The notes beneath the pieces are model-generated. The model had not been told where the DNA came from and did no database searches. It saw only the letters and a program-made list of their open reading frames with translations. Below are positions 1 through 31,664 of a stretch of 64,000 nt of DNA, piece after piece. The position numbers and the translations under genes are program-made. Position 1 is the stretch's first letter. Each line of letters opens with the position of its first letter. Origin of the DNA: Antedon bifida (Eukaryota; Echinodermata; Crinoidea; Comatulida; Antedonidae); the NCBI GenBank assembly GCA_963402885.1, contig OY727093.1:20893409-20957408 (forward strand), read 5' to 3'.

Positions 1-487
1 AGATATGAATTATTATAAAAATTAAGCCTATCGGATGTTGTGACGTTATCATATGGCCAGTTGAAGTTAAAAAGTAGTTTTTTCATCTCTTTCGTCAAAG
101 TTATACAATTTTTAAAGAGCGCGCACCGTCCTTCTATGTGCCAAATTTTCTTCCAATTGTTATATTTTATTGCTCAATTCATTATCTTTCGATATTGTTA
201 TCCACAAGTTTATTTTGATAATGTCATCAGTGCCAAAAAATTAGAACATGATGTGTGTCCGTAATTTCACCAATGCTACACTGTATATAGATATACAGTA
301 TATACTGTACATAATGTATATGGCATATAATAGGCACAGCACTATAGTATAACCGTATAATAGGATGGCATACATCAACATTTTCCGATTGTATTTTAAC
401 ATACGTGCATGTTTAAAAAATATTAATGTCAATAAAATTATAAAAATGATCACCTATAATTCGTCAAAGTGACGAATTAAATTCTAG
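1..487 (+). mobile_element. Helentron-like element, family B, 3' part (cut by window edge)
   Basis: This is the 3' half of a non-autonomous rolling-circle element. It ends in the inverted-repeat stem AATTCGTCA/TGACGAATT, then CTAG at 484-487 followed by TT. ATGATCACCT lies just inside the hairpin and is the inverted match of the family's 5' terminus AGGTGATCAT, which is the asymmetric terminal repeat layout of Helentrons/HINEs. The segment aligns almost base for base with 14210-14693. It has no coding potential: the two short frames here are chance. Confidence 0.85.
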
Positions 488-862
488 TTATTATTATTCT
501 TCTTCTTTCTGTACACTTTTTGTTTAACAATTATCTCAAAAAGTTGAATAACAATGATCACAAAAATTTCACAATGTCTTTCAAATACTTTAACTTAGCC
601 ATAATAAGCTTTTCAGCGTGATCACTCAACCATGCGCACATTAATTGTACAAAAGTGCTAAAAATAGTAAAAAATAAAGCCTTTTTAAAATTAATATAAC
701 TCTTCAGAATGCACGATGACCCCCAATTTTTTTAACTTATTCTGGAAGCCAATGAGTTGTAGATATAAATGTATATACACATTAGACGTACAAAATGGTA
801 TGACGTCATCATTTGGCCACATGAATTTTTAAAATAGGGTTTTTTCCCCTTTTGTCATCATC
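488..862 (+). mobile_element. Helentron family B body fragment
   Basis: The sequence matches the family B body found at 24668-25440 and 29936-31260, starting at the T-rich TTCTTCTTTCTGTACAC stretch normally found about 60 bp from the 5' end. The match to the 25.3-kb copy stops near 862, where OTU-related sequence begins. The segment is therefore truncated on the right. Its left edge is the insertion point of the preceding copy. Confidence 0.7.
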
Positions 863-2493: not shown

Positions 2494-2529
2494 TTAGGTG
2501 ATCATTTAGAATAAAATGATCACCTATTG

Positions 2530-3915: not shown

Positions 3916-4746
3916 TTTTCTTTTTTCTGTTGATTGTTCAGCACTTCGAGGCGTCCTGAACTTTGCGCTATAGTAAATTGAACATTATTATTATTGTTAT
4001 TATAAAATTGAAATTAAGAGACATGTATTCACATATTGAACGCGAAAAACCGAACACTTTTTTAGGCTGATTTTAATTATTATAAATGCTTTAATACATA
4101 GTGATGTTTCCTGAATACATATTCACTACACTGCACACTATTTCATGTAGATGTAGTAATGCTATGGCGGATGATTATGCCAAGATTATTCACACAAAAT
4201 AGGTGGTCATAATATTCGAAAATCTGAAACACTTGTATTATAGCCTCACTTGATTCAATTATAATAAATATCATCTGAATGAAATAAAAAAATATATATA
4301 TATAATTGTTATTTGTATCAAACAAAAACGAATGTCGTGTTCAGTGTGTAGAAGTTCACTTTTGATTGTTATCAATGATTTTATACATATTGATGTTTTT
4401 GTAATTCGTATTCACTACAATGCACATTATTTAATGTAGATGTAATGCTATTTTGAATGAGATCCTCCCAAGGTGATTTGCACAAAATACGTGATCATAG
4501 TCTTGGAAAGATCTCACCTGAAACCTTACTAAAAGCTAGCGGAGAAGTCAGAACACCACTCGGCGCAGAGACGTTAATTCCAAAATCTATTACCTGTAAT
4601 AATTTGGATGCGTAGTAATTATTATTACTCCTGCCTGAAATATGGTTAAATAATAATTGTAATAACATTATCTTTAACTTAAATTCTTGTATATGACTTA
4701 TAGGCCTATGTTACTTTTACTATTATTAGATTATAAAAGATGGTAA
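3916..4746. repeat. AT-rich spacer with ~290-bp degenerate direct duplication
   Basis: Segments around 4040-4215 and 4330-4520 are diverged direct copies; both contain TATTCACTACA followed by ATTT(C/A)ATGTAGATGTA. Short TA and ATT microsatellites lie between them. No open frame resembles a known protein. The block lies just 3' (minus strand) of the endonuclease remnant and may be its untranslated tail. Confidence 0.5.
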
Positions 4747-4989
4747 TCAAAATTTTATTTGAATGGCCTCATGATAGCTATAATAAATAGGAGTCACTTC
4801 CACCTGTATTGAATCTAAACCTTTGCTGTATACATGATCAATCAATGTATTACTTTCAGTAGTAGAACTTGTAACATGTTGTTGGTACCCATTCTCTGAC
4901 AATAAATTGTTCACTCTGGAAGGTTTTTTGAAAAGATTTTCATTAAAGTCACCCATTATGATACATTTTGTACTTACTTTATGTAACTG
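4747..4989 (-). pseudogene. Apurinic-type endonuclease C-terminal fragment
   Basis: About 80 codons on the minus strand show the AP-endonuclease signatures G-D-F-N (just after I-I-M), L-I-D-H-V-Y, and Y-S-Y-H-E-A near the C-terminus, then a stop. These are the Asp/Asn and His motifs of the exonuclease-endonuclease-phosphatase fold. Such a domain closes the Rep-helicase protein of autonomous Helentrons, and also starts LINE ORF2. The natural stop directly after the H-E-A motif, with no reverse transcriptase following, favours a Helentron or standalone origin. The upstream coding part is cut off by the Helentron ends at 4996. Confidence 0.65.
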
Positions 4990-4995
4990 TTCTAG

Positions 4996-5260
4996 TTGGT
5001 TATCCGCAACTTAGTTGCAGGATAATTGGTTATCCGCAACTTAGTTGCAGGATAACCCTTGTGATTGTAAATATCTTTTTTTTTTTTCATCTTTATTCTT
5101 CTTTCTTTCCCGGATTTTTGTTGCAGCTATAATATTCATGCTATATAATTCATGTCATAGGATGGCATAATAATTGTCGAAGTTCATATAGTTTAAAGTA
5201 TGTGCATGTTGCGTTTGCGCGGATAACCCGAACTCGTCAAAGTGACGAGTTCAAATCTAG
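4996..5260 (+). mobile_element. Family P Helentron: stray 5' terminus plus 235-bp mini-copy
   Basis: A 30-bp isolated 5' palindrome (4996-5025) is followed at 5026 by a complete but internally deleted copy that ends with the hairpin and CTAG at 5257-5260. The mini-copy keeps both termini (TTGGTTATCC and GCGGATAA-hairpin-CTAG) and little else. The next copy starts directly at 5261, giving a head-to-tail arrangement. Confidence 0.8.
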
Positions 5261-6847
5261 TTGGTTATCCGCAACTTAGTTGCAGGATAACCCATGTGAT
5301 TGTAAATATCTTTTTTTTCATCTTCTTCGTTATTCTTCTTTCTTACCCGGATTTTTGTGTGTCGCATTTCCCCTATTGATTGTGAACGTAACTTTGTATA
5401 ACTTTATCAAATGATTGGCCTGTAGCTGTAGATGTGCAAGAAACTTCGTTATATGACGTTAGAGTCACGCAGCGTAAGTTACGCGCGATTTTATGAATTT
5501 CAATGATTGATCATAGATTATAAACCAAAAGTCATTTTGTATTGACACTTACTGAAAATTTAAGTCATATCAAGCGCAAACTTTCTATGGATTAAAAATG
5601 GCATGTTTCACAAGAAGTTACGCGCGCACGCGCATTTAAAATTTCAAAATGCGCAAAATTAATTTCTAATCAACTTTCTACGCTGATCATGACATTTTGA
5701 GCATGTCAAAAATTCCCACACGCGCGAAAAAAATTACGCGTAAGGTGCGCACGGAGCATGGAAATCATGTGTTTTTCTCTTGAATTATGATTTTACAGCC
5801 TTTCCTAGTCATTTTAAAAAAGATTGACATAATTTCCAATTAAAATGATGTCATACGAACACGTTGATTTAGACCATTTGCGCGCGCTTTAGTTGCAAAA
5901 GTGACACAATTTTGTCAAAATTATGCCTATTTTGAATCTATTATAGCTCCTCAGGATCAACCGTTACCCCCAATTTTTTTAATTTAATATAGAAGCAGAT
6001 ATGTTGTAGATATGAATTCATGCAGAATCTTTACCCCTCGGATGTTATGACGTCATCGTTTGGCCACACGAATGTAAAATATTGGATTTTTTACTGTTTC
6101 GTTATTGCTCATTACATTAAATAGAGCGCATCTCGCTTATACGTATTCCATTTCCTCATATATTTTAATACTGTCTAGGTCAATCAACTATCTTTCGCAT
6201 GAGTTAAAAATATTTTAATTTTTATGACGTCATCATGTCTAAAAATGTAAATAACGTGGGTCACCTATTTTCATCTTTACAGTAAATTTCAATCTGTTAT
6301 AACTCGTCAGAATAAAAAGTGATAATCATGATTAAAACGTTTTCTGGAAGCTATTGGATTGTAGATACAAATTCATGTGAATATTTTGCCAAACAGATGT
6401 TGTGACGTCATCATATGGCCAGTTGAATTCAAAAAGTCATATTTTCATCTCTTGCGTAAAAGTTCATTGCATTTAAACGAGAGCGCATCTCACTTTTACG
6501 TGCTCAAAATTCTTCCAATTTGTATTAATGTAATTATTTAGATAATTATCTTCAAAAATTGTTATCTTTATATGTCAATTTGATGACGTCATCTTGTTAA
6601 TAATAGGATTTAAAAGATGGGTCTCGAAATTTCGTCTATGCTGCACTGTATATAACATACAATGTATTCTGTAAATACTGTAATATGCTGTATGCTACAA
6701 AATAGGTACAATTCAGCACTGTAAAAATATTTATTTCATGTCATAAGATGGTATAATAATTGTCGGCGTTCATATATTTTAAACGTATGTGCATGTTGCG
6801 TTTGCGCGGATAACCCGAACTCGTCAAAGTGACGAGTTCAAATCTAG
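5261..6847 (+). mobile_element. Helentron-like element, family P, near full length
   Basis: The 5' palindrome starting TTGGTTATCC is at 5261. The 3' end is GCGGATAA, hairpin, CTAG at 6844-6847. This 1.6-kb copy has a T-rich tract, a segment rich in ACGCGCGCACGCGC-like runs, then four TGACGTCA sites at 6048, 6225, 6403 and 6584. No protein is encoded. It is a good reference copy for the family. Confidence 0.82.
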
Positions 6848-7010
6848 TTATTGTATGAAATCTTATTCCGCTTTATTTCTTTCTGTACAGATTTTGTGTG
6901 TCAATTATCTCAAAAAGTAAAATGTCAATGTTCACAAAAATTTCACAATATCTTTCAAATACTGTAACTTAATCCTAATAAGCTTTTCAGCGTGATCACT
7001 CAACCGTGAC

Positions 7011-7205
7011 TGTACTGAAGAAAGGCCCATAAATAATATATACACATACGCAAGAACTTTCTTATTTTTATTATCTTTTATTTTTCACACTTCTTACTAA
7101 CCACGCTGTCGGTATTATCATTCTTTTTATCTATGACACGCCAAAACGGCCTTTTGCACACTATACAATAGCGCCCTCATTATTCTTTTGTTGTTCTTCA
7201 GAACA
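7011..7205 (-). repeat. BEL/Pao 3' LTR
   Basis: The 195-bp terminal repeat, read on the plus strand, starts TGTACTGAAG and ends CTTCAGAACA, with an internal CTTCAG/CTGAAG inverted match at its ends. I find no difference from the copy at 13127-13321 on reading. Confidence 0.96.
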
Positions 7206-7219
7206 TTCTCCCCTTCCTC
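7206..7219 (-). promoter_or_regulatory. Polypurine tract of the BEL/Pao element
   Basis: Read on the minus strand, GAGGAAGGGGAGAA directly precedes the 3' LTR. This is the expected plus-strand DNA primer for reverse transcription. Confidence 0.85.
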
Positions 7220-7585
7220 GACATACAGTTGTTTGTCGATCCCTTTATTACAATCTCAACTAACCTTTTTTTTTTTTTAACATAATAATAAATATCATGA
7301 AACATCATTATCAACAAAAACCCTATCACTCATATTCACTATAATTATATAACATCATTTCTAAATTAAAAACTATTTTTACTGATATTAATATTCACAT
7401 TGAACTTGTTGATAACTCATTTAACATCACTGTCCCTATTTGAACATTATCCAACAATGTATAACAATTATATGATCAATTTCTACACTGTTCACTTTAA
7501 CATAATTCAACTTATTAACACTAAAACTTAAACATTTGTGCTTCTTAATATAACACCTTTCTGTATCTTGATATTTAACATTCTT

Positions 7586-8824
7586 TTAATCAAGTATCTC
7601 TAGTGGACAAATGTTTGTAATACCTCCAATTACATCTCCATTGTTAGTTTTCACCTTAACTACCCTTACATGACCGTCTGGTCCTTTATATATTTCTCTT
7701 ATCCTACCCAGTGGCCATTGACCACGTACCGTACCTTTCTGAACTACTAATACCACTTCATCAACCCTAAGATCCCTCTTGGGTTCCCTCCACTTTTTTC
7801 GTTGGTTCAATGCTGGTAACCACTCCCTTAACCACCTATTCCAAAAGTTTCGCATTAATTCTTGGACACGTCTCCATCGTTTCCTAGGATTAACAACTGT
7901 TGTGTCTAATATGCTCTCTGGAGCTAGATTACCTCCCATTTGACCGTGTAAAAAATGGTTTGGAGTTAATGGAATTACATCCTTTACTGAGGCAGATTGA
8001 TATGTTAATGGACGTGAGTTTAATATACCCTCTGCTCCTACAAATGCAGAATGTAACTCTTCATCCGTTATATCTCTTAATACTCCATATATAGCCCTTT
8101 TAGCAGATTTTATAAGACTTTCATGTACTCCACCAAAATGTGGGGTCATAGGTGGAATAAAACTCCACTTTATACCAGTGACCACTGTCACACTTTGAAT
8201 TTTATCTTTATCTAAGGATTTTAACACTCCCTTTAATTCTCTATCAGCTCCTACAAAATTTGTCCCGTTATCAGACATCATTTCCTCGGGTTTACCCCTT
8301 CTACTGACAAATCTATGAAAAGCATTTAGAAATGTATCTGTGTCTAAACCATACGCCATTTCCAAGTGCACGGCTCTAGAGGATAAACATGTGAACAAAC
8401 ACAAATAACGTTTTGTTTGTACCTTTCCTCTACCCTGTTTAGTAAGGAAGGGACCTGCATAGTCTACTGCGACTCTAGTAAACGCCTTTAAACTTTCATT
8501 TCTAGTTCTATTCTTAGGTAATGGAGCCATTATTTGTTCCCCTTGTTTTGCTAATCTACGCCTACATCCCATACAATTTTTTTCACATTCTCTTATTTCT
8601 TCTCTAGCCGCTTGTACCCAGTACTTCTCAGAGAATAATGACAGTGTATGATTTGTACCTATTACATGATTTCCTAACTCATGATACATTTTTACAATTA
8701 ATTTAGTGACATGATGTTTCCTTGGTAATATAATGGGATATCTTACATCATATGATATCGCCTCATTTAGACTTAAACGTCCATTTGCTCTAAGCAAATA
8801 ATCGGCATCCATTCGAGGATTCAA
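7586..8824 (-). CDS. BEL/Pao integrase (C-terminal Pol)
   Basis: A 412-codon frame covers the integrase. It has an HHCC-type zinc region (two His in H-E-L-G-N-H...N-H, then C-x6-C-x2-C), the DDE core with V-D-Y-A-G-P (first Asp), S-D-N-G-T-N (second Asp) and F-G-G-V-H-E (Glu), and a C-terminal part with D-E-V-V-L-V. It inserts element cDNA into chromosomes. It is shifted in frame relative to the preceding Pol segment near 8800-8824, so the first Met is not a natural start. About 380 bp of untranslated sequence separate its stop from the LTR. Confidence 0.93.
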   Translation of the reverse strand: MNPRMDADYLLRANGRLSLNEAISYDVRYPIILPRKHHVTKLIVKMYHELGNHVIGTNHTLSLFSEKYWVQAAREEIRECEKNCMGCRRRLAKQGEQIMAPLPKNRTRNESLKAFTRVAVDYAGPFLTKQGRGKVQTKRYLCLFTCLSSRAVHLEMAYGLDTDTFLNAFHRFVSRRGKPEEMMSDNGTNFVGADRELKGVLKSLDKDKIQSVTVVTGIKWSFIPPMTPHFGGVHESLIKSAKRAIYGVLRDITDEELHSAFVGAEGILNSRPLTYQSASVKDVIPLTPNHFLHGQMGGNLAPESILDTTVVNPRKRWRRVQELMRNFWNRWLREWLPALNQRKKWREPKRDLRVDEVVLVVQKGTVRGQWPLGRIREIYKGPDGHVRVVKVKTNNGDVIGGITNICPLEILD

Positions 8825-9158
8825 TCCACTTATATTTACTCTTTGTACTTAGTATTTCACCCTTACTTAATCTCTTAATTTCGTCTGAGAACTCATCACC
8901 CTGTGCCTTTTGAATTATGGCAATTTCCGAGTCCTTAACCTCATCTACATTTAATGGTCCTCTGACTTTGTCTTTTAACCTACAGTTATTTATAAAACGC
9001 ATCACATACGCAAATACACACACTAACTTATTCCAGCTAGAGTACCTTATTGGGTTTAATCTCCAGTTATCACTTTTCACTCTTGGTACCACTTTACTCA
9101 ATAACGTTTTCATTCTTTTCTTAATCTCTATTTCATCTATCGCTTTCTCAATCTTATT
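8790..9158 (-). pseudogene. BEL/Pao Pol segment between RNase H and integrase
   Basis: This connector continues in the same frame as the reverse transcriptase frame, after a single in-frame TAA at 9159-9161. It runs to 8790, overlapping the integrase frame by 35 bp. It includes K-V-V-P-R-V-K-S-D-N-W-R-L-N-P-I-R-Y-S, the region just upstream of the integrase zinc finger in BEL elements. The stop and the following frame change are point lesions in an otherwise well-kept polyprotein. Confidence 0.85.
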
Positions 9159-10916
9159 TTATGGCCATTGCATCTCACAATCACTCAAGAATTCAGGACC
9201 TCGCCACCAAAGTTCATTCTGCTGCAACTCTATAACAGTACACCCTCGCGAAGCCACATCCGCAGGGTTTAATTTAGTGGGTATATATCTCCATTGACTA
9301 GGATTTGTTTGACCTTGTATTTCACCAATTCGATTCGCAACGAACGGCTTAAAATCTCTACTATGACCTCGAATCCACCACAATACATTCATACTGTCAC
9401 CCCAAAATTTCACTTCCTTTAGTTGACATTGTAACGGATTTACAACAGATTTCGCAAGCTTTAAACCTAACATAGCTGCCATCAACTCAAGTCTCGGGAT
9501 ACTCATGGATTTAAGAGGAGCTACTTTCGTTTTGGATGCAACTAATCTTACATTTCTTTTTTTAACATCGTTATCATTCTGTGACACTGAATACACAACC
9601 ACCGCATAAGCATCATTTGACGCGTCAACAAATGTATGCAACTCTTGATTCTCGCGCTCACCTGGGTTTATACACCTTTCTATTTCTATATCTTTTAATT
9701 CGCCCAAATTTGCTTTCCATCGTTCTAATTTCTGACCTACATCAGGGGGTAACTCTTCATCCCAGTCTAATCCATTTGCCCAAATCTCCTGCATAATTAT
9801 CTTGCCTGCAACTACTACAGGAGCCAAAATCCCTAGTGGATCAAATATAGAAGCGATTCTACTCAAAGCTAATCTCTTGGTTAACTTACAGACATTAGAA
9901 GGACCAGAACCTCCTTGAAACTTAAATGTATCTTCCTCGGCTTTCCATATTAAACCTAAGGTTTTTGCAGAAGGTAACTCGTTCCCACTTAATTTGATTT
10001 CTTTAGCTCTATCTACTTCTGGTATTTTTTCCAGTACCGCTTTTGAATTTGAAACCCATTTTCTAGCACTCATACCCGCGCTTCCCCATAATTCTTTAAG
10101 CTCTCTATATAACTCTACTGCCTCTTGCTCATTTTTAACCGAGGTCATGGTATCATCCATGTAGGTAGAGTCTAAAACAGCCTGTGCTGCTAGAGGATAC
10201 TCTTTAGAATTTTTTCGTGCATGTTCCTGAGTTACAAATTGAGCTAAGAATGGTGCAACATTAAGACCAAACACTAGTCGATTGAACTCATAAATTTCTG
10301 GCATCCGCTCTGTGTCTAAATCTCGCCACAAAAACCTAAGCATTTTCCTATCTTCTGGTTGCACTCCAATCTGGAGATACATTTCTGCAATATCGCAAAT
10401 AATCGCTACCTTTTCCTTTCTAAATCTTAATAACACATCGAATAAATCGTTCTGCAATTTAGGCCCTGGATAGATCATATCATTCAAACATCTTCCCCCA
10501 TAACGCGCCGCGGCGTCAAACACTAACCTAACTTTCGTTGTTTCCCTATCGGGTTTAACTACTGGGAAATGTGGTAGAAACCATTGATTTAGTTCTGTTA
10601 GGGATTGGTCTATTTTTCTGACATAGCCTTTGGATCTGTAATTATCTAAAACGTTCTGATAATTATCGCCTAACATCTTGTCTCTAGTTAATTTTCTTTC
10701 TAGACACTCTAATCTCTTAAAGGCCATCTCATAATTGTTATCCATATTTAATCCTTCTTCCCGCCACGGAATATTCACACTGTATCGCCCATCAACAGCT
10801 GTCAATGACTCTGACACTTTTTGAATCACTCTTTCATCTTCAGCTTTATATATTTTCAAATCACTTACTCCATAACTATCTACTTCCCAAAACTTCCTCA
10901 TCATTACTTCGTTCAC
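9159..10916 (-). CDS. BEL/Pao reverse transcriptase and RNase H
   Basis: The 585-codon frame holds the RT (fingers with V-R-L-V-F-D-A-A-A-R, catalytic Y-M-D-D near residue 250) and RNase H (T-F-V-D-A-S-N-D-A-Y near residue 430, later W-G-D-S-M-N-V-L). It copies the element RNA into DNA in cytoplasmic particles. The first 41 bp overlap the Gag-protease frame in a different register. BEL elements usually encode one Gag-Pol frame, so this may be a one-base lesion or, less likely, programmed +1 frameshifting. The Met at 10916 is only the first in-frame one. Confidence 0.94.
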   Translation of the reverse strand: MNEVMMRKFWEVDSYGVSDLKIYKAEDERVIQKVSESLTAVDGRYSVNIPWREEGLNMDNNYEMAFKRLECLERKLTRDKMLGDNYQNVLDNYRSKGYVRKIDQSLTELNQWFLPHFPVVKPDRETTKVRLVFDAAARYGGRCLNDMIYPGPKLQNDLFDVLLRFRKEKVAIICDIAEMYLQIGVQPEDRKMLRFLWRDLDTERMPEIYEFNRLVFGLNVAPFLAQFVTQEHARKNSKEYPLAAQAVLDSTYMDDTMTSVKNEQEAVELYRELKELWGSAGMSARKWVSNSKAVLEKIPEVDRAKEIKLSGNELPSAKTLGLIWKAEEDTFKFQGGSGPSNVCKLTKRLALSRIASIFDPLGILAPVVVAGKIIMQEIWANGLDWDEELPPDVGQKLERWKANLGELKDIEIERCINPGERENQELHTFVDASNDAYAVVVYSVSQNDNDVKKRNVRLVASKTKVAPLKSMSIPRLELMAAMLGLKLAKSVVNPLQCQLKEVKFWGDSMNVLWWIRGHSRDFKPFVANRIGEIQGQTNPSQWRYIPTKLNPADVASRGCTVIELQQNELWWRGPEFLSDCEMQWP

Positions 10917-12951
10917 TACTGGTTTTGTAAGTATTCACATGTAGTGATGTTGTTCGCCAACTTCTACTCAAAGGACCAACACACGTCCAACCTAACGGTG
11001 TTCTTCTCGCAACAGGTTCTCCGGGACCCCCACATTTCTCTTCTAATGCTGTATGCAACTCTGGACAATCCACTCCAATCAGTAAATCTATCTCTTTTCT
11101 CTGACTACTTATCACAGGAAATTCTATGTCTCTCAAATGATCCCAATCCTTACTAACACTACTCCAATCTGACGCTTCTAGTCTACCAGTAACATCACTT
11201 ATAGTCACTGCATTCACTTTAAATTTCTTAGATCCATCCAACGGTAATACAAATATCTCAACTGGCTTAGTCACAAATCTTTCCTCCTTACCACTTAACA
11301 AGCTCACAACCATCTCTTCTGTTACTCCACTGAGACCCAACTCTCCACATAACTCTTCATTAACATATGTCTGAGTACTACCATCATCTAATAATGCATT
11401 CACCTCTATTCTTTTCTTTCCATTACTAACTATGATTGGTATGGTTCGCAAAGCAATAGATTGGTTTTTACTTAACAATGTAGTGTTTGTCCCTGTTTCT
11501 GTTTTAGTTACTTTACGCTCCCCTTCCCTGGCAACTCCTACCTCTACAGTTTCAAAATTACTTTCCTTTTTTACTTTTTCTCTATGTAACAACCTATTAT
11601 GGTCACTCTTACATCCATTTATACCACAGGACATAACCCGTTTACAATCAACTGCCCTATGTTTACATAGACACTTAAAGCACAATTTTTCTTGGCTAGC
11701 AATATTCCATCTCTCATTGATGGATAGTTGTCTGAATTTTACACATTCCCATAACCTATGGTTTTTCTTACAACATACACATGTGAACAAAGGTGATTCA
11801 CTAGGCTTTTCCCCTGTGGGTGTACAACTATGACTGTAAGCCTTTTTTCCTCTAAAATCTGTGTTTACTACTCGAAATTTACTACTCTTATTTTCATTAG
11901 CTGTAGTGCTAATATTTCTTCCAAATATATTGCTGTTTACTGCAGCTTGACTCTCTACAAATTTTAACATATCCAAGAAACTTGGTTCCCTTTCACTAAG
12001 TATTGATTGTGCAGCATTAGCCCATTTAGCTTGCATAAATCTAGGTAATAGCCCTTGAATTTTTAATAGGTTGGAGGTACTGTTTAAATCATTTGTGTAC
12101 CCCATTTTTGTTAGTGTTAGTTGACATTTTTTCATGTCACTGACTAGTCCCCATAACTCTTCATGGTTTCCTGCATTAATCTCTTTTCTGTTGGTTAACT
12201 TAAGCATCAATGAGTTTAAAACTAGATGGGGCTGCCCAAACTGCCTTTTAAGAATCTCTAAAGCCTGCTTATAACCTTCTTCTCCTAATAGAGGACAACT
12301 TACTATACTTTCCTTTGCCTTATTTTTACATAACTGTAGAAGGTATTGTAATTTTGCATTATCTGATGTTAACTTACTTGCTACATTTATCTCAAAATTT
12401 TGTACAAAAGCCCAATAGTTTCCCGGATCCCCATGGAATTCTATCACTTCCGCTTTTGGAAGTTCTAGGGCTAATTTGAATGCGGCCATAGCATCCATAT
12501 CATTACTGTTAACCTTATTATTACCATCTTTCTCTCCCTGATCAACGTTTTCACTGTCCTCTTCTACCATAACTCTGTCAGTCTCTTCTGTCACTGTTCC
12601 CCTGACTGGCGGCTCCAGCACCCTCTTAGTCTCATGTATCACCTCTAGAAAATCCCTTTGGCAATCTTGCATCCACTTCTCCGCTTCCTCAAATTGTTCT
12701 TCATCTTCCAAATTTATCATTTCCACAATCTGCTCGTGAGCCCTCTCTACTGCTTCAAATACCTCGTTTGCTTTCTTTAATAAGTTCTGTATTAACTCAA
12801 AGTCCCTCTCTAGTTCCTCCTTCTGACACAAAACATTTATTGTGTTTGTAATCCTTGTTAACTGTCCTTTTCTATTTCTTCGTAGTATTTTTATATCTTT
12901 TTTTCGTTTCTCCATGTCTTCCATTTTGTTTGACTTTTCGCTTAGAAGCAT
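10876..12951 (-). CDS. BEL/Pao Gag and aspartic protease
   Basis: The 691-codon frame starts 175 bp inside the 5' LTR. An N-terminal charged coiled region is followed by the Pao-type Gag domain (F-H-G-D-P-G-N-Y-W near residue 170, then the K-L-Q-Y-L-L-x-L segment). Cys-rich zinc-binding clusters lie at about 395-460, and the protease has active-site L-L-D-D-G-S near 520-525. The DDGS variant is common in BEL proteases. The N-terminal part of the polyprotein forms particles and the protease matures it. There are no stops across the whole length. Confidence 0.93.
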   Translation of the reverse strand: MLLSEKSNKMEDMEKRKKDIKILRRNRKGQLTRITNTINVLCQKEELERDFELIQNLLKKANEVFEAVERAHEQIVEMINLEDEEQFEEAEKWMQDCQRDFLEVIHETKRVLEPPVRGTVTEETDRVMVEEDSENVDQGEKDGNNKVNSNDMDAMAAFKLALELPKAEVIEFHGDPGNYWAFVQNFEINVASKLTSDNAKLQYLLQLCKNKAKESIVSCPLLGEEGYKQALEILKRQFGQPHLVLNSLMLKLTNRKEINAGNHEELWGLVSDMKKCQLTLTKMGYTNDLNSTSNLLKIQGLLPRFMQAKWANAAQSILSEREPSFLDMLKFVESQAAVNSNIFGRNISTTANENKSSKFRVVNTDFRGKKAYSHSCTPTGEKPSESPLFTCVCCKKNHRLWECVKFRQLSINERWNIASQEKLCFKCLCKHRAVDCKRVMSCGINGCKSDHNRLLHREKVKKESNFETVEVGVAREGERKVTKTETGTNTTLLSKNQSIALRTIPIIVSNGKKRIEVNALLDDGSTQTYVNEELCGELGLSGVTEEMVVSLLSGKEERFVTKPVEIFVLPLDGSKKFKVNAVTISDVTGRLEASDWSSVSKDWDHLRDIEFPVISSQRKEIDLLIGVDCPELHTALEEKCGGPGEPVARRTPLGWTCVGPLSRSWRTTSLHVNTYKTSSERSNDEEVLGSR

Positions 12952-13016
12952 GCACTGTACTCACGTGTATGTGTGACGTTCGCTCTCTAGCTAGAAGCAT
13001 GCACTTTACTCACGTG
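12943..13016 (-). repeat. 50-bp tandem duplication in the BEL 5' untranslated region
   Basis: AGAAGCATGCACT followed by (G/T)TACTCACGTG occurs at about 12943-12966 and again 50 bp later, just upstream of the Gag start. It overlaps the first codons of the Gag frame on its lower side. Whether it affects translation cannot be told. Confidence 0.7.
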
Positions 13017-13104
13017 CTCCGTTGCAACTAACTATAGGCTCACAACTTTCAGCCTAAAAATGTTGGTTCTTTAAAGTTTAATCTGTTTAAATTGGTCTAT
13101 CTAA

Positions 13105-13120
13105 CCTCGCTCTGCTACCA
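13105..13120 (-). promoter_or_regulatory. Primer binding site of the BEL/Pao element
   Basis: Six bases inside the 5' LTR the minus strand reads TGGTAGCAGAGCGAGG. It begins with the TGG that pairs with a tRNA 3' CCA. I do not identify the priming tRNA. Confidence 0.7.
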
Positions 13121-13126
13121 TTTTCT

Positions 13127-13321
13127 TGTACTGAAGAAAGGCCCATAAATAATATATACACATACGCAAGAACTTTCTTATTTTTATTATCTTTTATTTT
13201 TCACACTTCTTACTAACCACGCTGTCGGTATTATCATTCTTTTTATCTATGACACGCCAAAACGGCCTTTTGCACACTATACAATAGCGCCCTCATTATT
13301 CTTTTGTTGTTCTTCAGAACA
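13127..13321 (-). repeat. BEL/Pao 5' LTR
   Basis: This copy has the same length and apparently the same sequence as the LTR at 7011-7205. LTRs are identical at insertion, so the element is recent. The promoter must lie in here, but I cannot place a TATA box with confidence. Confidence 0.96.
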
Positions 13322-14693
13322 GTGACGTCATTTATACGCCATTTTGTGAAATCACATTATCAATCATATCTCCATAATTCATTATCACATATTAATGAAA
13401 TTCACTACACGTAAACTTCAGGTCAAGGGTAAAAATATTAGCAAATAAGAACTTGCGCGTTTCAAGGACATAAGCGTGAAATCACGTGTTAAAAATTTAA
13501 AAAGCTCAAAATTAAGTTTTGATCAATTTAGGGCATGAATTAGGCCATTTGTGTGTTTCAAAAAATTACTGCGCAAAAACACGTTTTTGCACACGCGAAT
13601 CTTAGAAAGCGTAAAAAATAAAATGTGATGTATAAATCATATTCTACTCACAATTCTTAGTACATTCACCGAGTCCATTCTGACTTAAAATAGTGCTATA
13701 CGAGCACGTTAAAAATGACAAAATGCGCACATTAATTGTACAAAAGTGCTAAAAATGGTAAAAAATAAGACCTTTTTAAAATGAATATAACTCTTCAGAA
13801 TGGAAGGTGACCCCCAATTTTTTTAACTTATTATGGAAGCTACTGAGTTGTAGAGATGAATTCATGTACACATTTGACGTACAAAATTGTGTGACGTCAT
13901 CAAATGGCCACTTGAATTTAAAAATTAGGATTTTTTATCTTTTTTTGTGGATTATCACATTCAATAGAGCGTATCTCCGTTATTTGAGCCCGATTTTCAC
14001 TCAGATTTCAGTATGTGCTTGCTATATTAATTATCTTTATCATGAGTTGCCATCATTTTATTTTGATGGCGTCATCACGCGTAAAAACTTGAATAACGTA
14101 GGTTGTGTAATTTGACCTTCACCGTAAATTTGAATATCTCACAGCTTTTAAGAATTAAAGGTGACCTTGATGATTATAATTGGTTATGAAAGCTGATGAA
14201 ATGTAGATATGAATTCATATAAAAGTTAAGTCTATCGGATGTTGTGACATTATGATATGGCCAGTTGAAGTTAAAAAGTAGTTTTTTTATCTCTTTCATA
14301 AAAGTTATACAAATTTCAAAGAGCGTTCACCGCGCTTCTACGTGCCAAATTTTCTTCCAATTGTTATATTTTATTGCTTAATTCATTGTCTTTCGATCTT
14401 GTTATCCACAAGTTTATTTTGATAATGTCATCATACCAAAAAAATTAGAACATGATGTGTGTCTGTAATTTCACCAATGCTACACTGTATATAGATATAC
14501 AGTATATACTGTACATAATGTATATGGCATATAATAGGCACAACTCAGCACTATAAGCGTATATAATAGGATGGCATACATCAACATTTTCCGATCGTAT
14601 GTTAACATACGTGCATGTTTAAAAATATTAATGTCAATAAAAATGATAAAAATGATCACCTATAATTCGTCAAAGTGACGAATTAAATTCTAG
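13322..14693 (+). mobile_element. Family B Helentron body, right part
   Basis: This continues the copy interrupted at 7010. It starts within a TGACGTCA site that the BEL insertion duplicated. It contains the long-T AT-rich body, TGACGTCA-type sites at about 13891, 14068, 14245 and 14425 (the last three degenerate), and the terminal block ATGATCACCT, hairpin, CTAG ending at 14693. It is non-coding, and the short frame at 13807-14115 is chance. Confidence 0.82.
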
Positions 14694-22970: not shown

Positions 22971-23097
22971 ATTGTCGTTTCAGTAAAATGATAAAAATGA
23001 TCACCTATAATTCGTCAAAGTGACGAATTAAATTCTAGTTAGGTGATCATTTAGAATCGAATGATCACCTATTGTTATTGTACTTGCATTAAAATAT

Positions 23098-24667
23098 TTA
23101 GTTATCCGCATTCAGCGGATAACTCCTTGTAATCGTCCTGTTTCAATTTTATTAGTTATCCGCTAGTAGCGGATAACTCCTTGTGATTGTAGTGGATCAA
23201 TATTTTTTTTTTTCTGTATTATTCTTATTTCTTTCCCATTTTTTTGTGATTCACGTTTCTCTAAAATGTGTAAACATAACATTTCATAACTTTGACAACA
23301 TGTGGGCATTTACGTGAAGTTGTGCACCTCCTATTTTGAATGACGTCAGAGTTGCGCAACGTGACTTACGCGCGATTTTATGATTTTTAATGATTGATCA
23401 TAGCTTAAAAACCAAGCGTAATTTTTTTTTTACCCTTTATGAAAATTTAAGTAATATCAAGGGCAAACTTTTAGTGTACTTACGCGCGTTTTTACGAATT
23501 TCGCGTATTTAACATAGATCGAAAACCATATAACAATTTAATATGAAACTTGACAAAAGTTATATCTTGCGCTAACTGACCATGGGGAAAAAATGGCATG
23601 TTTCACACGAAGTTATGCTCGCACGCGCGCTTAAAATTTAAAATTGCGAAAAAACAATTTCTGGTCATAATGACATAATCTTTTTCGGTGTGCAATATTC
23701 CAACGTATGACATGCATGTGGCGTTTGTCGTGCGGATAACTAACTCATCAAAGTGACGAGTTTCATGTCTAGTTCTTTTTTCTTTCCCGGATTTTTGTGA
23801 CCAGCATATCTCAATTGCTTGTGAACATAACTTTGTACGCGCGCGTTTTTGATGAAAAAGTTCCAAAATTCGTGAAAATTATGCATTTTTTTAAGCAGTC
23901 ATAGATTCTAAACTACGAGGTGAACTTTTTTTTATTCTGCAAGTTGATGAGTTGTAGATATCGGATCATGGATCAATATGGCTAACCGGACATTGTGACG
24001 TCATCGTATGGCCACACGAATGTAAAATATAGGAATTTTATTTCTTTCGTTATTAATCATCACATTCAATGGAGCGCATCACGCTTATCCATATTCCATT
24101 TTCTCCAAGATTTTAATATTGTCTAGGTCAATCAACTATCTTTCGCATGAGTTAAAAATATTTTAATTTTTATGACGTCATCATGTCTAAAAATGTAAAT
24201 AACGTGGGTCACTTATTTTCATCTTTACAGTAAATTTCAATCTGTTATAGCTCGTAAGAATAAAAAGTGATAATCATGATTAAAACGTTTTCTGGAAACT
24301 ATTGGATTTTAGATACGAATTCATGTGACATTTAAAAGAGCGCGCATCTATATTTTACGTATTCAAATTCCTTCTACACGTTAATATGTTGTTGCTGAGA
24401 TAATTTCCTTCCAAAATTGCTATCTTAGAGTTTAATTTTGATACCGTCGCCATGTTAAAAATATGAATAAATGGCAGGTCCCATAATTTCACCTATTCTG
24501 CACTGTATGTAATATGTATACATATTATACTGTTTATACTGTATAATACTATATGACACAAAATTGACAGAATTCAGCACTAACAACATTCTGTGTGCAA
24601 TATTAGTATGACGTGGCGTTTGTCGTGCGGATAACTAACTCGTCAAAGTGACGAGTTTCATGTCTAG
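23098..24667 (+). mobile_element. Two nested family A Helentron copies
   Basis: Two 5' palindromes of type TTAGTTATCCGC...GCGGATAAC (23098, 23151) and two 3' ends (CTAG at 23769-23772 and 24664-24667) show one copy inside another, with the inner insertion in the T-rich tract near the outer 5' end. The inner inverted match GCGGATAACTAA precedes each hairpin. The body carries TGACGTCA sites near 23997 and 24173. Confidence 0.78.
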
Positions 24668-26134
24668 TTTTCTTCTTTCTGTACACTTTTTGTGTAACAA
24701 ATATCTCAAAAAGTTAAATGTCAATGATTACCAAAATTTCACAATGTCTTTCAAATACTGTAACTTAGTCCTAATAAGCTTTTCAGTGTGATCACTCATC
24801 CGTGACATCATTTATACGCCATTTTGTGAAATCATTTTATCAATCATATCTCCATAATTCATAATCACATATTAATAAAATTCACTACACGTAAGCTTCA
24901 GGTCAAGGGTAAAAATATTAGCAAATAAAAACGAACGTGCACGTAGGGTCATGCACGTGAAATCGCACGTTAAAAATTTAAAAAGCTCAAAATTACGTTT
25001 TGATCAAATTAGAGCATGAATTAGGCCATTTGCGTGTTTTAAAAAATTACTGCACGCGCAAAAACGTGTTTTTGCGCGTGTGTACGTAGAAAGCGTAAAA
25101 AATAACAATTTTTTGTACAAATTGCATTCTACTCATCTTCCTTAGTACATTCACCAAATTTGAGTCCATTTCGACTTAAAATAATGCTATACGAGCACGT
25201 TAAAAATGACAAAATGCGCACATTAATTGTACAAAAGTGCTAAAAATGGTAAAAAATAAGGCCTTTTTAAAATGAATATAACTCTTCAGAATGGAAGGTG
25301 ACCCCCAATTTTTTTAACTTATTATGGAAGCCAATGAGTTGTAGATATAAATGTATATACACATTAGACGTACAAAATGGTATGATGTCATCATTTGGCC
25401 ACATGGATTTTTAAAATATGGTTTTTTCCCCTTTAGTCATAGACCACCATATTCAACAGAGCGTAACTCGCTTATCTGTGATCGATTTTCTTTTAATTTT
25501 TATTTGATTCTACCTCAACCAATTATGTTACTCATGAGTTGCCAATATTTTCATTTTTATGACGTCATCACGTCTTAAAATTTGAATAACGGTGGTTACG
25601 TAATTTCACCTACAACGTATATTTGAATACCTTACAGCTCTTCTGAATTAAAGTTGACCTTGATGATTATAACTTATTATGAGAGCTGGTTAAATGTAGA
25701 TATGAATTTATATAAAAATTATGCCTATCGAATCTTGTGACGTTATCATATGGCCAGTTGAAGTTAAAAAGCAATTTTTTCATCTCTTTCGTCAAAGTTA
25801 TACAAATTTTAAAGAGCGCGCACCGCGCTTCTACGTGCCAAATTTTCTTCCAATTGTTATATTTTATTGCTCAATTCATTATCTTTCGATATTGTTATCC
25901 ACAAGTTTATTTGGATAATGTCATCAGTGCCAAAAAATTAGAACATGATGTGTGTCCGTAATTTCACTAATGCTACACTGTATATAGATAGATAGATACA
26001 GTATATACTGTACATTATGTATATGGCATATAATAGGCACAACTCAGCACTATAGCGTATAATAGGGTGGCATACATCAACATTTTCCGATTGTATGTTA
26101 ACATACGTGCATGTTTAAAATATATTAATGTCAA

Positions 26135-28241
26135 CTAGACATGAAACTCGTCACTTTGACGAGTTAGTTTTCCGCACCACGACAAACGCCACATGCACGT
26201 CATACGTTGGAATATTGCACACAGATAAAGATTATGGCATTATGACTAGAACTGAAGAATATGATATGCTGTTAGTGCTGAATTCTATCAATTTTGTGTC
26301 ATATAGTATATACATGCAAACAGTATAATCTGTATACATATTACATACAGTGTAGAATAGGTGAAATTACGAGACCCGCCATTTATTCCAATTTTTAACA
26401 TGGCAACGGTATCAAAATGAAACACTTAGATAGCAATTTCAGAAGGAAATTATCTCAGGAACAACATATTAACGTGTAGAAGAAATTTGAATACGTAAAA
26501 TATAGATGCGCACCCTTTTAAATGTGATGAACTATTACGCAAAATATGAAAATACGACTTTTTTAATTCAACTGGCCATATGATGACGTCACAACATCCG
26601 ATTGGCAAAATGTTTACATGAATTCGTATCTACAATCCAATAGCTTCCAGAAAACGTTTTAATCGTGATTATCATATTTTATTCTTACGAGCTATTACAG
26701 ATTAAAATTTACTGTAAAGATGAAATTAATGACCCACGTAATTAAAATTTTTAGGCATGATGACGTCATAAAAATTAAAATATTTTTATCTCATGCTAAA
26801 GAAAGTTGATTGACATAGATAATATAAAAATCGGGGTGAAAATGGAAAACAGATAATTGGAGATGCGCTTTATTAAATGTGATGAGCTATGACGAAAGAT
26901 ACAAAAATCCTATATTTTATATTCGCGTGGCCATACGATGACGTCACAATGATCGATTCGCCATATCAATGCATGATTCCATATCTACAACTTATCATAT
27001 TCCAGAATATGTAATAAAAATAACTTTCTCCATTTAGTTTAGAAATTACGACTGTTTAAAAAAAGGCATAATTTTGAAGAATTTTTGAAATTTTTCATCA
27101 AAAACGTGGGCAAATTATCCAATTCTACTTGCTCGTATGACGTGATTTTAAGTCGAAATTGTTTAAAAATTGGTAAAATTACTAGAAAATGCTGGAAAAA
27201 CATAAATCATGTCGAAAAAGTATGTTTTTAACGTTACGTGAGCACCGAGCGCGTAAAAAAATGCGTGCACGTGGGAATTTTTGACCTAGATAATATAAAA
27301 ATCGGGGTGAAAATGGATAACGGATAAGTGGAGATGCGCTCTATTAAATGTGATGAGCTATGACGAAAGATACAAAAATCCTATATTTTATATTCGCGTG
27401 GCCATACGATGACGTCACAATGTCCGGTTAGCCATATTAATGCATGATCCGATATCTACAACTCATCAACTTCCAGAATATGCAATAAAAATAACTTTAA
27501 CCGTTTAGTTTAGGAACTACGACTGTTTAAAAAAAGGCATAATTTTGACAAATTTTGACGATTTTTTGAACTTTTTCATCAAAAACACACATAAATTATC
27601 CAATTTGAAGTGCCCGTAGACGTAATTTTAAATCGAAATTGTTCAAAAGTTGGTAAAATTAATAGAAAAGGCTGGAAAAACATAAATCACGCGAAAAAAA
27701 ATTTGTCAACGCTACGTGCGCGTAAAAAAATGCGCGCACCTGGGAATTTTTTACATGCTCAAAATGACATGAAACGCGTAGAAAAATGATTAGAAATTGA
27801 ATTTTCGCATTTTGAAAATTTAAACGCGCGTGCGCGCGTAACTTCGTGTGAAACATGCCATTTTTTTTTCACATTCAGTTAGCCCAAAACATAAATTAAA
27901 CTTTTGTTAAGTTTCAATTTAAATTGTTATATGTTTTTCAATCTATGTTAAATAGGCAACATTCGTAAAAAAGTGCGTAAGTCATGTTGCGCAACTCTGA
28001 CGTCATTAAAAAATAGGAGGTGCACAACTTCACGTGAATGCCCTCATGCTGACAAAGTTATAACATGTTATGTTTACACGTTTTTTAGATACGTGAGACA
28101 CAAAAATGAGGGAGAAGGAAAGAAAAAAAAAAAGTAACAGGACAGTTACAAGGAGTTATCCGCTCAATGCGGATAACTAATAACATAGAAAAAGAATCTG
28201 GACAATAACAAGGAGTTATCCGCGTCTAAGCGGATAACTAA
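26135..28241 (-). mobile_element. Family A Helentron copy or copies, minus strand
   Basis: The 3' end (CTAG, hairpin, inverted repeat) is at 26135-26180. Two 5' palindromes close it, at 28180 and 28241. The segment at about 26810-26960 is repeated at 27285-27430, so two copies have been fused or the body duplicated. TGACGTCA sites are near 26586, 26762 and 26938. The insertion interrupts family B body exactly between 26134 and 29881. Confidence 0.75.
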
Positions 28242-28253
28242 TAATACAGAAAA

Positions 28254-29880
28254 CTAGACATGTAACTCGTCACTTTGACGAGTTAGTTATCCGCATGACA
28301 AACGCCACGTGCACGTCATACGTTGGAATAGTGCACACAGAAAAACATTATGGCATTATGACCTGAACTGAAGAATATGATATGTTGTTAGTGCTGAATT
28401 CTGTCAATTTTGTGTCATAGTATATATAGTATAATATGTATACATATTACATACAGTGTAGAATAAGTGAAATTATGGGACCTGTCATTTATTGCAATTT
28501 TTAACATGTTGACGGTTTTAAAATGAAACGCGAAGATACCAATTTTGGAAGGAAATTTTCTTAGCAACAACATTAACGTGTAGAAAAAATTTGAATACGT
28601 AAAATATTGATGCATGCTCTTTTAAATGTAATGAATTATGACACAAAAGATGAAAATATGACATTTTTTATTTAACTGGCCATATGATGACGTCACAACA
28701 TCCGATTGGCAACATTTTCACATGATTTCGTATCTACAATCCAATAGCTTCCAGAAAACGTTTGAATCGTAATTATCACATTTTATTCTTACGAGCTATA
28801 ACAGATTATAATTTACTGTAAAGATGAAATTAATGCCACACGTAATAAAAATTTTTAGGCATGGTGACGTCATAAAAAATAAAATGTTTTTAACTCGTGC
28901 GAAAGATTGTTGATTGACCTAGACAATATCAAAATCGGGGTGAAAATGGAAAACGGATAAGTGGAGATGCGCTCTATTAAATGTGATGAGCTATGACGAA
29001 AGATACAAAAATCCTAAATTTTATTGTCGCGTGGCCATACGATGACGTCACAATGTCCGGTTAGCCATATTAATACATGATCCGATATCTACAACTCATC
29101 AACTTCCAGAATATGTCATCCACAAAAAGTTGATCGTGTAGTTTAGAAATTACGACTGTTTAAAAAAAGGCATAATTTTGATGAAATTTTGAACTTTTTC
29201 ATCAAAAACGCGCGCAAATTGTCCAATTCGACGTGCTCGTATGACGTAACTTTAGGTCAAAATTGTTTAAAAGTTGGTAAAATTACTAGAAAACGGCTGG
29301 AAAAACATAAATCAAGCGCAAAAAATATGTTTTTAATGCTACGTGCAAATTTGCGCACGCGTGGGAATTTTTGACATACTTAAAATGACATGAAACACGT
29401 AGAAAGTTGATTAGAAATAAATTTTGCGCATTTTAAATTTTTAAATGCACGTACGCGCGTAACTTTGTGTAAAACATGCAATTTTTTTTTCAACAGAAAG
29501 TTAGCGCATGATATAAATTAAACTTTTGAAAAAAGTTTCAATTTAAAACGTTATTCTGTTTTTTACCTATGTTTAAAACGCTAAATTCATAAAATCGCGC
29601 ATAAGTCACGTTGCGCAATTGTAAACATGCTGAAAAGCTTCACTGCACAACTTCATATGAGTGACGATATGTAGAGAAAGTTACGAAATGTTATGTTTGG
29701 AAGTTTTACAGATACGCGTGACACAAAAAATTACAGAAAGAAAGAAGATAAAGAAAAAAAAGAGGATGATGATTTCGTACAATCACTAGGAGTTATCCTG
29801 CAACTTTGTTGCGAATAACTAAAAAATATTGATCCCATACAATAACAAGGAGTTATCCGCTCTACCAAGCGGATAACTAA
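28254..29880 (-). mobile_element. Family A Helentron copy, minus strand, near full length
   Basis: CTAG is at 28254-28257, followed by the hairpin and inverted terminal block. The 5' ends are at about 29822 and 29880, the second showing an outer copy. The body has TGACGTCA sites near 28686, 28864 and 29040. It is non-coding. Confidence 0.78.
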
Positions 29881-30192
29881 TAAAATTATAAAAATGATCA
29901 CCTATAATTCGTCAAAGTGACGAATTAAATTCTAGTTATTCTTCTTTCTGTACACTTTTGTGTAACAATTATCTCAAAAAGTTGAATGGCAATGATCAGA
30001 AAAATTTCACAATGTCTTTCAAATACTTTAACTTAGTCATAATAAGCTTTCCAGTGTGATCACTCATCTGTGACGTCATTTATACGCCATTTTGTGAAAT
30101 CACATTATCAATCTTATCTTCATTATTCATTATCACATATTAATGAAATTCACTACAAGTAAACTTCAGGTCAAGGTAAAAATATTAGCAAA

Positions 30193-30819
30193 CTAGAGGG
30201 TACTCCGAGAGTACAAACCTCCGCCTACTGTAAAATTCCCCTACATAAAATTTTCCCGGAAAATATATATATATTTTTACAATTTTTTTTTTATTAGTTC
30301 TAAGTGTAAATAGGCTAACTGCACACTACAAAGTTGTGAATGAGAGTTTGGTGTAATAGTTATGTATCCAGCCTCTCACAGTTGAGATTGCTGGTTCAAG
30401 TCCCACTGAGGTTATTTTTTTTTTTTATTATTATTTTTTTATTTCTTTTTTGTTTTTGTTTTTTGTGGACCTTGATCTTTGACCCTGACCCTTCAAAATT
30501 TAAACACAATTATATGATGAGTCATTGATCATTGTGGCTAAGTTTGGTGAGAATCGGATAAAAACTGTGGTCTCTAGGCAGTAAAATAGTTTTTTGTTAG
30601 TTGTGACCTTGAACTATTACCTTTTCCCCTCACAATCGAACTCGTCCAAGCTTTTGGGGCATAGATCATTGTAGCCAAATTTGGTGAGAATCGGCTAAAA
30701 ACTGGCCTCCAGGCTGTTCAGACACACACACACACAAAAACACACGATTGCAGGTGAAAACACACGCACAAACACACAAACATACAGGGGTAAAAATATA
30801 ACCTCCTTGGCGGAGGTAA
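30193..30819 (+). mobile_element. tRNA-related 627-bp insertion (SINE-like)
   Basis: Comparison with uninterrupted family B body at 13438-13490 and 24900-24960 fixes the edges at 30193 and about 30819. A pol III-like unit lies inside: a box A-like TGGTGTAATAGTT, a box B GGTTCAAGTCC at 30393-30403, then a long T-run. The ends carry CCTCCGCC and GGCGGAGG in inverted order, and a CA-rich microsatellite lies near the right end. It may be a SINE or a composite non-autonomous element. Confidence 0.6.
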
Positions 30820-31664
30820 TAAAAACTTGCGCGTTTCAAGGTAATGCGCGTGAAATCGCACATTAAAAATTTAAAAGCTCAAAATTAAGTTTGATCAATT
30901 TAGAGCATGAATTAGGCTATTTGCCTGATTAAAAAAAATAATGCGCAAAAACACGTTTTTGCGCACACGATTCTTAAAAAGCGTAAAAAAAATTAAATTT
31001 GATGTATAAATCACATTCTACTCACAATCTTTAGTACATTCACCGATTTTGAGTCCATTCCGACGTAAAATAACGCTATACAAGCACGTTAAAAATGACA
31101 AAATGCGCACATTAATGTCACAAAAGTTCTAACAATGGTGAAAAATAGGTCTTTTTTAAAATGAAAATAACTCTTCAGAATGCAAGATGACCCCCAATTT
31201 TTTTAACTTATTCGGGAAGCCATTGAGTTGTAGATATAAAAGTGTTGTGACGTCATCAAATGGCCACTTGAATTTAAAAATTAGGATTTTTTAACTTTTT
31301 GTGTAGTTTATCACATTCAACAGAGCGCTTCTTATATTTATTTGCTCAATTCATTATCTTTCAAAATTGTCATCTTGGAGTTTATTTTGATAATTCCATC
31401 ATACCAAAAAATTAGAACATGATGTGTGTCCCGTAATTTCACCTATGCTACATATAGATATATACAGTATATACTGTACATATTGTATATGGCATATAAT
31501 AGGCACAACTCAGCACTATAAGCGTATAATAGGATGGAATACATCAACATTTTCCGATCGTATGTTAACGTATGTGTATGTTTAAAAAAAATATTAATTT
31601 CAGTAAAACTAAAATGATAAAAATGATCACCTATAATTCGTCAAAGTGACGAATTAAATTCTAG

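Follow-up and report, generated by a model that had tools for sequence, protein, structure and literature searches.

Helentron-type elements of the crinoid Antedon bifida nest in a landing zone just inside the 5' ends of resident copies

Elements that end in a hairpin followed by CTAG lie one inside another along a 64,000-nt stretch of the Antedon bifida genome (C1:20893409-20957408 of a 315.6-Mb assembly in 27 contigs; this whole stretch is called the window), and the locus raises the question of what these elements are and why new copies are found within old ones. Helentrons are endonuclease-bearing relatives of Helitrons, taken to move by rolling-circle replication, and the target choice of Helitron-like elements is little understood. 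The explanation offered here, regarded as very probably correct as a whole, is that these are non-autonomous Helentrons (HINEs) which insert into the 5' zone of resident copies. In fact, same-orientation insertion 42-74 nt inside resident 5' ends occurs far above the expectation from T-content, or takes place directly against resident ends, and these self-insertions build nested stacks. The nesting of new copies within a single zone of older ones is the main feature of the locus, and was absent from the initial annotation of the window.

The 3' ends were defined by scoring the hairpin upstream of every CTAG in the window, which gave 330 readings (165 sites on both strands) and 14 hairpin-plus-CTAG ends, 10 plus and 4 minus, whose first base of CTAG, on their own strand, lies at:

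484, 5257, 6844, 14690, 23035, 23769, 24664, 29932, 31661 and 58245, plus strand
28257, 26138, 54648 and 53478, minus strand

TT follows directly in all 14, against 19 of the 316 remaining CTAG readings (CTAGTT, 33 of 330 overall). The other hairpins scoring at least 8 upstream of a CTAG all lacked the shared core; they were four at 56582-56629 and, apart from these, 5' palindromes taken from the opposite strand, and a fifteenth 3' end (3880-3914) has kept its inverted repeat and hairpin without CTAG. The 5' ends are palindromes starting with TT(A/G)GTTATCC in family A and with TTAGGTGATC in family B, and the inverse copy of their left arm sits 29-32 nt from the 3' end. In a table of 14 elements (12 from the window and 2 from elsewhere) arms and 3' repeat match within families and differ between them; the right arm of the palindrome is lost in 2530-3914 and weak in 29822-28254, and the other tabulated elements have both the asymmetric inverted repeats and the 5' palindrome. 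Genome-wide, the exact family-A 3' pattern was found 2376 times (1264 + 1112), compared with 0 + 0 for the reversed control pattern. The initial annotation, which had described the 14 ends with their TT and the 5' palindromes with a reverse complement near the 3' hairpin, was therefore right on both counts. It had also held that such elements dominate the window, an overstatement because HINEs fill 16,962 of the 64,000 bases (26.5%, by assigned intervals), and it had taken 22971-31664 as their site: Helentron-type ends are indeed present there, but the region, far from being a single element, is made up of nested A and B elements together with other DNA.

The elements from which the nesting was read are the following.

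1..487, plus: 3' part of a family-B HINE entering from outside the window, with hairpin and CTAG at 484-487; similar to 25698-26134 and 14205-14695
488..860 (right limit approximate), plus: T-rich zone and beginning of the body of an outer family-B HINE whose 5' end lies outside the window
2494..14693, plus: family-B HINE B3 (5' palindrome 2494-2529; body 6848-7010 and 13322-14693; 3' end 14690-14693); its joined flanks match B1 and a frame runs through
2530..4995, plus: family-A element, 3' end 3880-3914 without CTAG, then about 1.08 kb of other DNA
4996..5260, plus: short family-A (G1) HINE whose 30-bp 5' palindrome is doubled (4996, 5026), its 3' end adjoining the next element
5261..6847, plus: full family-A (G1) HINE A1, 1587 bp
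22979..23038, plus: solitary family-B 3' end, 60 bp, without 5' part, adjoining the B1 5' end
23039..29935, plus: family-B HINE B1, whose joined flanks align with 370-498, 14576-14703 and other B copies
23098..24667, plus: family-A (subfamily A) HINE, 59 nt inside B1, interrupted by 23152-23772
23152..23772, plus: family-A (subfamily A) HINE, 54 nt inside the 23098..24667 HINE
26135..29880, minus: family-A block in the B1 body near the B1 3' end, with an exact empty site
29936..31664, plus: what is left of an outer family-B HINE (zone and body), 3' end 31661-31664, 5' end missing
53475..55908, minus: family-A (G2) HINE A6, 5' end 55908, 3' end 53475, interrupted by A5
54645..55859, minus: family-A (G2) HINE A5, 49 nt inside A6 and 88.9% identical to it
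57440..58248, plus: family-A (G1) HINE A4, 809 bp, in unrelated DNA

According to the comparisons of filled and empty sites, insertion takes place in front of T(T) with no further duplication. Once the minus block 26135-29880 is removed, the remaining sequence is exactly that found at 370-498 and 14576-14703, where the B copies are uninterrupted, and joining the flanks restores complete acceptor leaders or bodies where A5 lies 49 nt inside A6 and where A elements lie 36 nt deep in B3 and 59 nt deep in B1. B3 itself sits in an open frame which is continuous once its flanks are joined, with no duplication beyond TT. Elsewhere in the genome, the Helentron C7a holds a B element that is absent from its 99.3% identical relative C15a, the empty site reading GTAA-TT-CCAA and the filled one GTAA[TTAGG...CTAG]TTCCAA. 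Target duplications longer than 2 bp, named in the initial annotation as evidence to the contrary, were absent from the sites examined. The 5' ends start with TT(A/G)G, not TC, and the left flank ends in A, G or T.

What follows the 14 window ends is, in seven cases, the zone of another HINE (484, 6844, 23769, 24664, 29932, and 28257 and 54648 on the minus strand); a 5' end follows directly at 5257 and 23035, B body at 26138 (minus), and other DNA at 14690, 31661, 58245 and 53478 (minus). The sequence from 488, for example, aligns with the B leader of the copies at 23039 and 2494, being the acceptor of the preceding B HINE. B3 is interrupted by the A elements of 2530-6847 and by a BEL/Pao retroelement (7011-13321), and B1 by the A elements of 23098-24667, which lie in its 5' zone, and by the minus-strand block, in which 5' ends lie at 29880, 29822, 28241 and 28180 and 3' ends (last bases) at 28254 and 26135, a fusion near 27283 having removed some 3' ends.

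To place these observations on a genomic scale, the first 82 listed family-A 3' ends, all on C1, were compared with ten reference copies, the limits of the zone (25-115) having been fixed after the window junctions were seen and before this sample. The DNA after the ends was unrelated in 34 cases; in a further 34 it belonged to the zone of another element, in 9 it was a 5' end, in 3 it was body, and 2 cases were unclear. The 34 zone insertions lie at reference positions 42-74 inside the 5' end, on the same strand, and six of the nine ends at a 5' end are exact, the other three leaving 7-10 nt between. The five remaining ends (L111, a decayed 5' end; L115, zone by eye; L081, position 129; L113, position 798; L093, matching further on) were kept out of the zone count. 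CTAG was followed by T in all 82 ends and by TT in 68 (TC 8, TG 5, TA 1), so that the TT of the initial annotation, invariable in the window, is reduced to a single invariable T in this sample.

The zone might of course be hit passively, merely as the most T-rich part of the element. The targets are rich in T (7.1 T in 12, compared with 5.6 at background TT), the zone is rich in T-runs, holding 63% of the TT sites with a T-content of at least 0.60 in 24 nt in a first model over window copies, and a poly-T preference of Helentrons has been proposed in the part of Thomas et al. (PMC4067079) available. Nevertheless, when the TT sites of six reference copies were weighted by the T-content at the 34 unrelated targets, 11% of the within-element hits were predicted to fall in the zone, compared with 34 of 39 observed (P 8e-28). 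With junctions 90% alike counted once the figure was 26 of 31 (P 1e-20), and even when only sites with at least 9 T in 12 were allowed, 34% were expected (P 1e-8, distinct junctions). Several junctions, moreover, lie outside T-runs (CTGTATTA|TTCTTC, CACCTATTG|TTATTG). Passive sequence preference alone does not fit the zone hits, and a T-rich trap is regarded as an unlikely explanation.

A second sample, of 28 ends in ten Rep loci and thus dependent on the choice of these loci, gave 12 ends in the zone, 11 abutting a 5' end and 5 elsewhere, two of which (C7a 17775 and 19311) resemble B zone by eye and were left as classified; of 20,000 random TT sites, 253 fell in the zone and 15 abutted. In addition, of 99 neighbouring ends, 36 are spaced by 1450-1750 bp on one strand, compared with 0.11 expected.

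If copies are nested, the stacked 5' ends and the 3' ends that follow should mirror each other. At C1:14027828-14035824 the 5' ends start with TTGG, TTAG, TTAG, TTAG and TTAG, spaced by 77, 65, 62 and 65 nt, and are followed by the 3' ends of four subfamily-A elements and then one of type G (5' G-A-A-A-A, 3' A-A-A-A-G), with the outer bodies resuming at reference positions 73, 63, 73 and 58. Since both the 3' ends and the resumed outer bodies mirror the stacked 5' ends, this is a five-level stack closed on both sides. The window array 23039-29935 likewise shows 5' ends in the order B-A-A and matching 3' ends in the order A-A-B. The mirror order was read end by end in one of seven stacks, the other six being read as stacked 5' ends only; the 17 gaps between 5' ends in the seven stacks are of 47-83 nt in 15 cases and of 128-132 nt in two.

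Arrays could also arise as rolling-circle concatemers which lost their inner 5' hairpins, without any nested insertion, and tandem Helitron arrays are indeed known (PMC4067079 and PMC5876387, both available in part). L035 holds three head-to-tail units, 96-98.5% alike, inside a B element, and exact 3'-to-5' junctions exist in the window (5260/5261, 23038/23039) and at 6 of the 82 sampled ends. The L035 units may be a concatemer or a duplication. As a general explanation, however, concatemer formation is contradicted by stacked 5' ends whose 3' ends, of different subfamilies, follow in mirror order (B-A-A/A-A-B in the window) and by acceptor halves which rejoin into a complete leader, and it is excluded for mixed joins, such as the one at C11b 157, where a G2 3' end meets the 5' end of a subfamily-A element; it is therefore judged very unlikely, although it may hold for the L035 units.

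Alternatively, a few zone insertions could have been multiplied, either as composites moving as one unit or by regional duplication. The same CTGTATTA|TTCTTC break appears twice in one stack, and position 72 is used five times. Yet 26 of the 34 zone junctions differ under the 90% rule, several acceptor families are involved, and multiplication gives no reason for the zone to be preferred over other places, which makes this explanation improbable.

The partners of these HINEs were sought in the genome. The Helitron Rep family gave 39 genome matches, many in open frames of 2000-3180 aa, and at ten Rep loci about 20 kb was read. In five of them (C15a, C7a, C11a, C11b and C10a) the copies resemble one another on the N-terminal side of the frame, and there the sequence continues into a family-A 3' end of the opposite strand, so that the Rep frame is antisense to its element. 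The five 3' ends are followed by five different sequences, each beginning with TT. Those of C15a and C7a are identical over 45 nt to the window copies A0 and A1 (G1) and over 43 nt to A4, and those of C11a, C11b and C10a over 42 nt to A5 and A6 (G2); judged by their 3' ends, two Helentron groups match G1 and G2, respectively; subfamily A is assigned to no group. C11a and C11b may be a single duplicated copy, since they lie 33 kb apart and are 99.6% alike. In the one frame scanned for domains, that of C8a (L014/L015), OTU, DUF6570, Helitron_like_N, PIF1 and Exo_endo_phos were found, the endonuclease being fused C-terminally to the Rep-helicase and the OTU lying further to the N-terminus. In the window, no Helitron Rep was detected with Pfam among 16 different frames of at least 110 aa, a set chosen from frames of which the others mostly overlap, and retroelement domains were found.

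The Helentron/HINE identity given in the initial annotation is accordingly upheld by the ends, the target and the 3' ends of the Rep partners, the Rep-helicase copies which it had suggested looking for genome-wide having proved to carry the same hairpin and CTAG as the window HINEs. Its further idea, that two families share one machinery, is unsupported: G1 and G2 match different Helentron groups, and none of the 10 Rep loci read had family-B ends as its own, so that no autonomous partner of B was found among them. Extension to the left at C13a, C8b and C16a gave no end that could be assigned to the Rep element. Cut-and-paste miniature inverted-repeat transposable elements (MITEs), moved by a DDE transposase, would also be short, non-coding and of high copy number, and the related bivalve elements (pearl) were formerly called MITEs (PMC7492417, in the part available). 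Asymmetric ends, the lack of duplication beyond TT and the existence of Helentrons with the same 3' end leave that explanation with a negligible probability. A scan of viral contigs with the 3' core gave a single match, which lies in a phage gene and is due to chance.

In each family the arms correspond to the 3' repeat, as TTGG...CC, TTAG...CTAA, TTAGGTGATC in B, TTAGGTTATATGCAT in C and TTGGTTTTCCGC with GCGGAAAACC in a further variant. Family C is known from one genomic locus:

C8c (L028/L029), about 16411-18016, minus: third terminal family, TTAGGTTATATGCAT ... ATGCATATAACCTATAATTCGTCATAGTGACGAATT

The arms of A, B or C score 3-6 against the 3' ends of the others, compared with 10-14 for matching ends. 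Independent changes among these co-varying ends are few; the co-changing arms (A-G, A-A, B, C and the TTTTCC variant) represent natural end swaps for matching HINEs to their helpers. When the literature was searched for the terminal letters as strings, only GTTATCCGC was found among the matches listed, in papers with unrelated titles.

Several points weigh against the explanation as a whole. The 82-end sample comes from one end of one chromosome, and ends within one stack are not independent. The T model considers just the 12 nt to the right of the junction, and the strength of the zone excess depends on how steep the T-preference is, because very T-rich TT sites mostly lie in the zone. The domain-scanned C8a is outside the five loci with a resolved 3' end, though it is 94% identical to C11a over long stretches, and nested HINEs crowd the 5' ends of the Rep elements, and the most promising candidate, C10a 15599, may itself be a truncated HINE. 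Finally, the 3' repeat at 26138 (GCGGAAAAC) is one base off the 5' arm at 29880, and the covariation in the 3' stem amounts to one two-sided change, reached by 164 of 500 shuffles, with two alignment rows out of register.

In the mechanism proposed, Rep would nick and join the ends, and HINEs would borrow the protein of the matching Helentron. Canonical Helitrons form plus-strand circles, a fork being set up where the 5' end is nicked (Helraiser; PMC5876387, in the part available), and Helentrons may do likewise, the resident 5' palindrome being the presumed replication start. Binding of Rep/helicase, or strand opening, at this palindrome would expose a T-rich single strand just inside the hairpin, to which the incoming copy would be joined. 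Such an exposed strand would account for the distance, the orientation and the use of the ends by other families that share this hairpin core. That Helentrons home to their own kind, with the resident 5' palindrome as a beacon and the newcomer joined 42-74 nt inside in the same orientation, is a proposition for and against which we see the balance as even. Because the zone is narrow, oriented and at a constant distance from the presumed start of replication, the choice of target is linked to the transposition reaction itself; if the proposal is true, new copies would be concentrated in old ones and host genes would be spared.

A second kind of 5' duplication, unexplained by zone insertion, is the doubled 5' palindrome with the break GGATAA|TTGG and no acceptor TT, seen at 4996-5055, at L027 about 43-68 (C10a) and at L100/L076. 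The roughly 1.08 kb which follow 3880-3914 end in CTAG adjoining the 5' end of the next element and include, at 4750-4995 on the minus strand, an apurinic/apyrimidinic (AP) endonuclease fragment of a retrotransposon; read-through capture of 3880-4995 is possible, or unrelated DNA may have been inserted into the 3' end. Another repeat lies in the outer B body at about 30193-30817, with the ends GAGGGTACTCCGAG... and ...CTTGGCGGAGGTAATA.

The rest of the window includes the BEL/Pao element, frames resembling long interspersed nuclear elements (LINE-like) and DIRS-like frames, and satellite arrays. The BEL/Pao retroelement in the B3 body (7011-13321) has 195-bp long terminal repeats (LTRs) and an apparent 5-bp duplication, and its insertion is recent, since the LTRs are mutually identical. 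A SCAN-domain frame is interrupted on the minus strand (1173-2132 and 14694-15000), and 3' of it lies a short frame with weak OTU/otubain matches below the cut-off (E 0.018 and 0.058). Reverse-transcriptase and tyrosine-recombinase frames stand side by side, DIRS-like, at 59479-61568, with a similar fragment at 46313-47206 (minus). Related satellite-like arrays of 78-88 bp (165-253 bp), in both orientations, occupy 34168-35369, 37582-38180, 43325-44828, 58406-59243 and 62990-64000.

As regards known systems, canonical Helitrons such as Helraiser share the 3' hairpin, an end fitting CTRR, an often A|T junction and the lack of duplication; the elements described here differ in having no 5' TC, a palindromic 5' end, a 3' inverted repeat and insertion also after G and T. 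A close likeness is to the HINE/DINE-1 elements and Helentrons of Thomas et al. (2014, PMC4067079), which, in the part of that paper available, have the same palindromic subterminal inverted repeats, 3' hairpin and T-rich TT target without duplication, as well as the same partner make-up of Rep, helicase, fused endonuclease and OTU. The frame of Helentron-Da-40 is also in minus orientation, a precedent for the antisense frame found here, and in the mite families the inverted repeat lies 38-60 bp from the 3' end, compared with 29-32 nt here. Close neighbours and tandem arrays of Helitrons are described there and in PMC5876387; strong nesting in one resident zone, as found here, was not seen in the available part of the former. 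Cg_HINE of the Pacific oyster (PMC7492417, likewise in part) has the same subterminal repeat with inner complement, a short simple-sequence stretch in the left module, the 3' palindrome and a T-rich target without duplication. It differs in its central satellite-like repeats, no direct repeats of at least 30 bp being found in the two HINE bodies tested here, and the word "nested" is absent from the main text of that paper.

In the open-licence literature searched, no report of a landing zone for self-insertion was recognised. A precedent is FoHeli, a Helitron2 of Fusarium oxysporum (Chellapan et al., PMC5148889, in the part available), with the same asymmetric inverted repeats, hairpins and variable frame orientation, for which multiple 5' termini with 31-85 nt repeated were described and self-insertion was proposed. 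The 31-nt 5' duplications of the Fusarium elements may be set beside the 30-bp doubled palindrome at 4996/5026. In most FoHeli cases the double 5' ends are followed by a single 3' end, with nesting proposed and one nested case, whereas here both sets of ends are found in mirror order and the landing zone has been measured. The mirror-ordered stacks supply the intermediate by which, in the proposal of Chellapan et al., double 5' ends arise; if the mechanism holds, the multiple 5' termini of the fungal elements would result incidentally from that same reaction. For the Fusarium Helitron2, self-insertion and multiple 5' termini had already been published, and the self-targeting landing zone is what is new in Antedon bifida.

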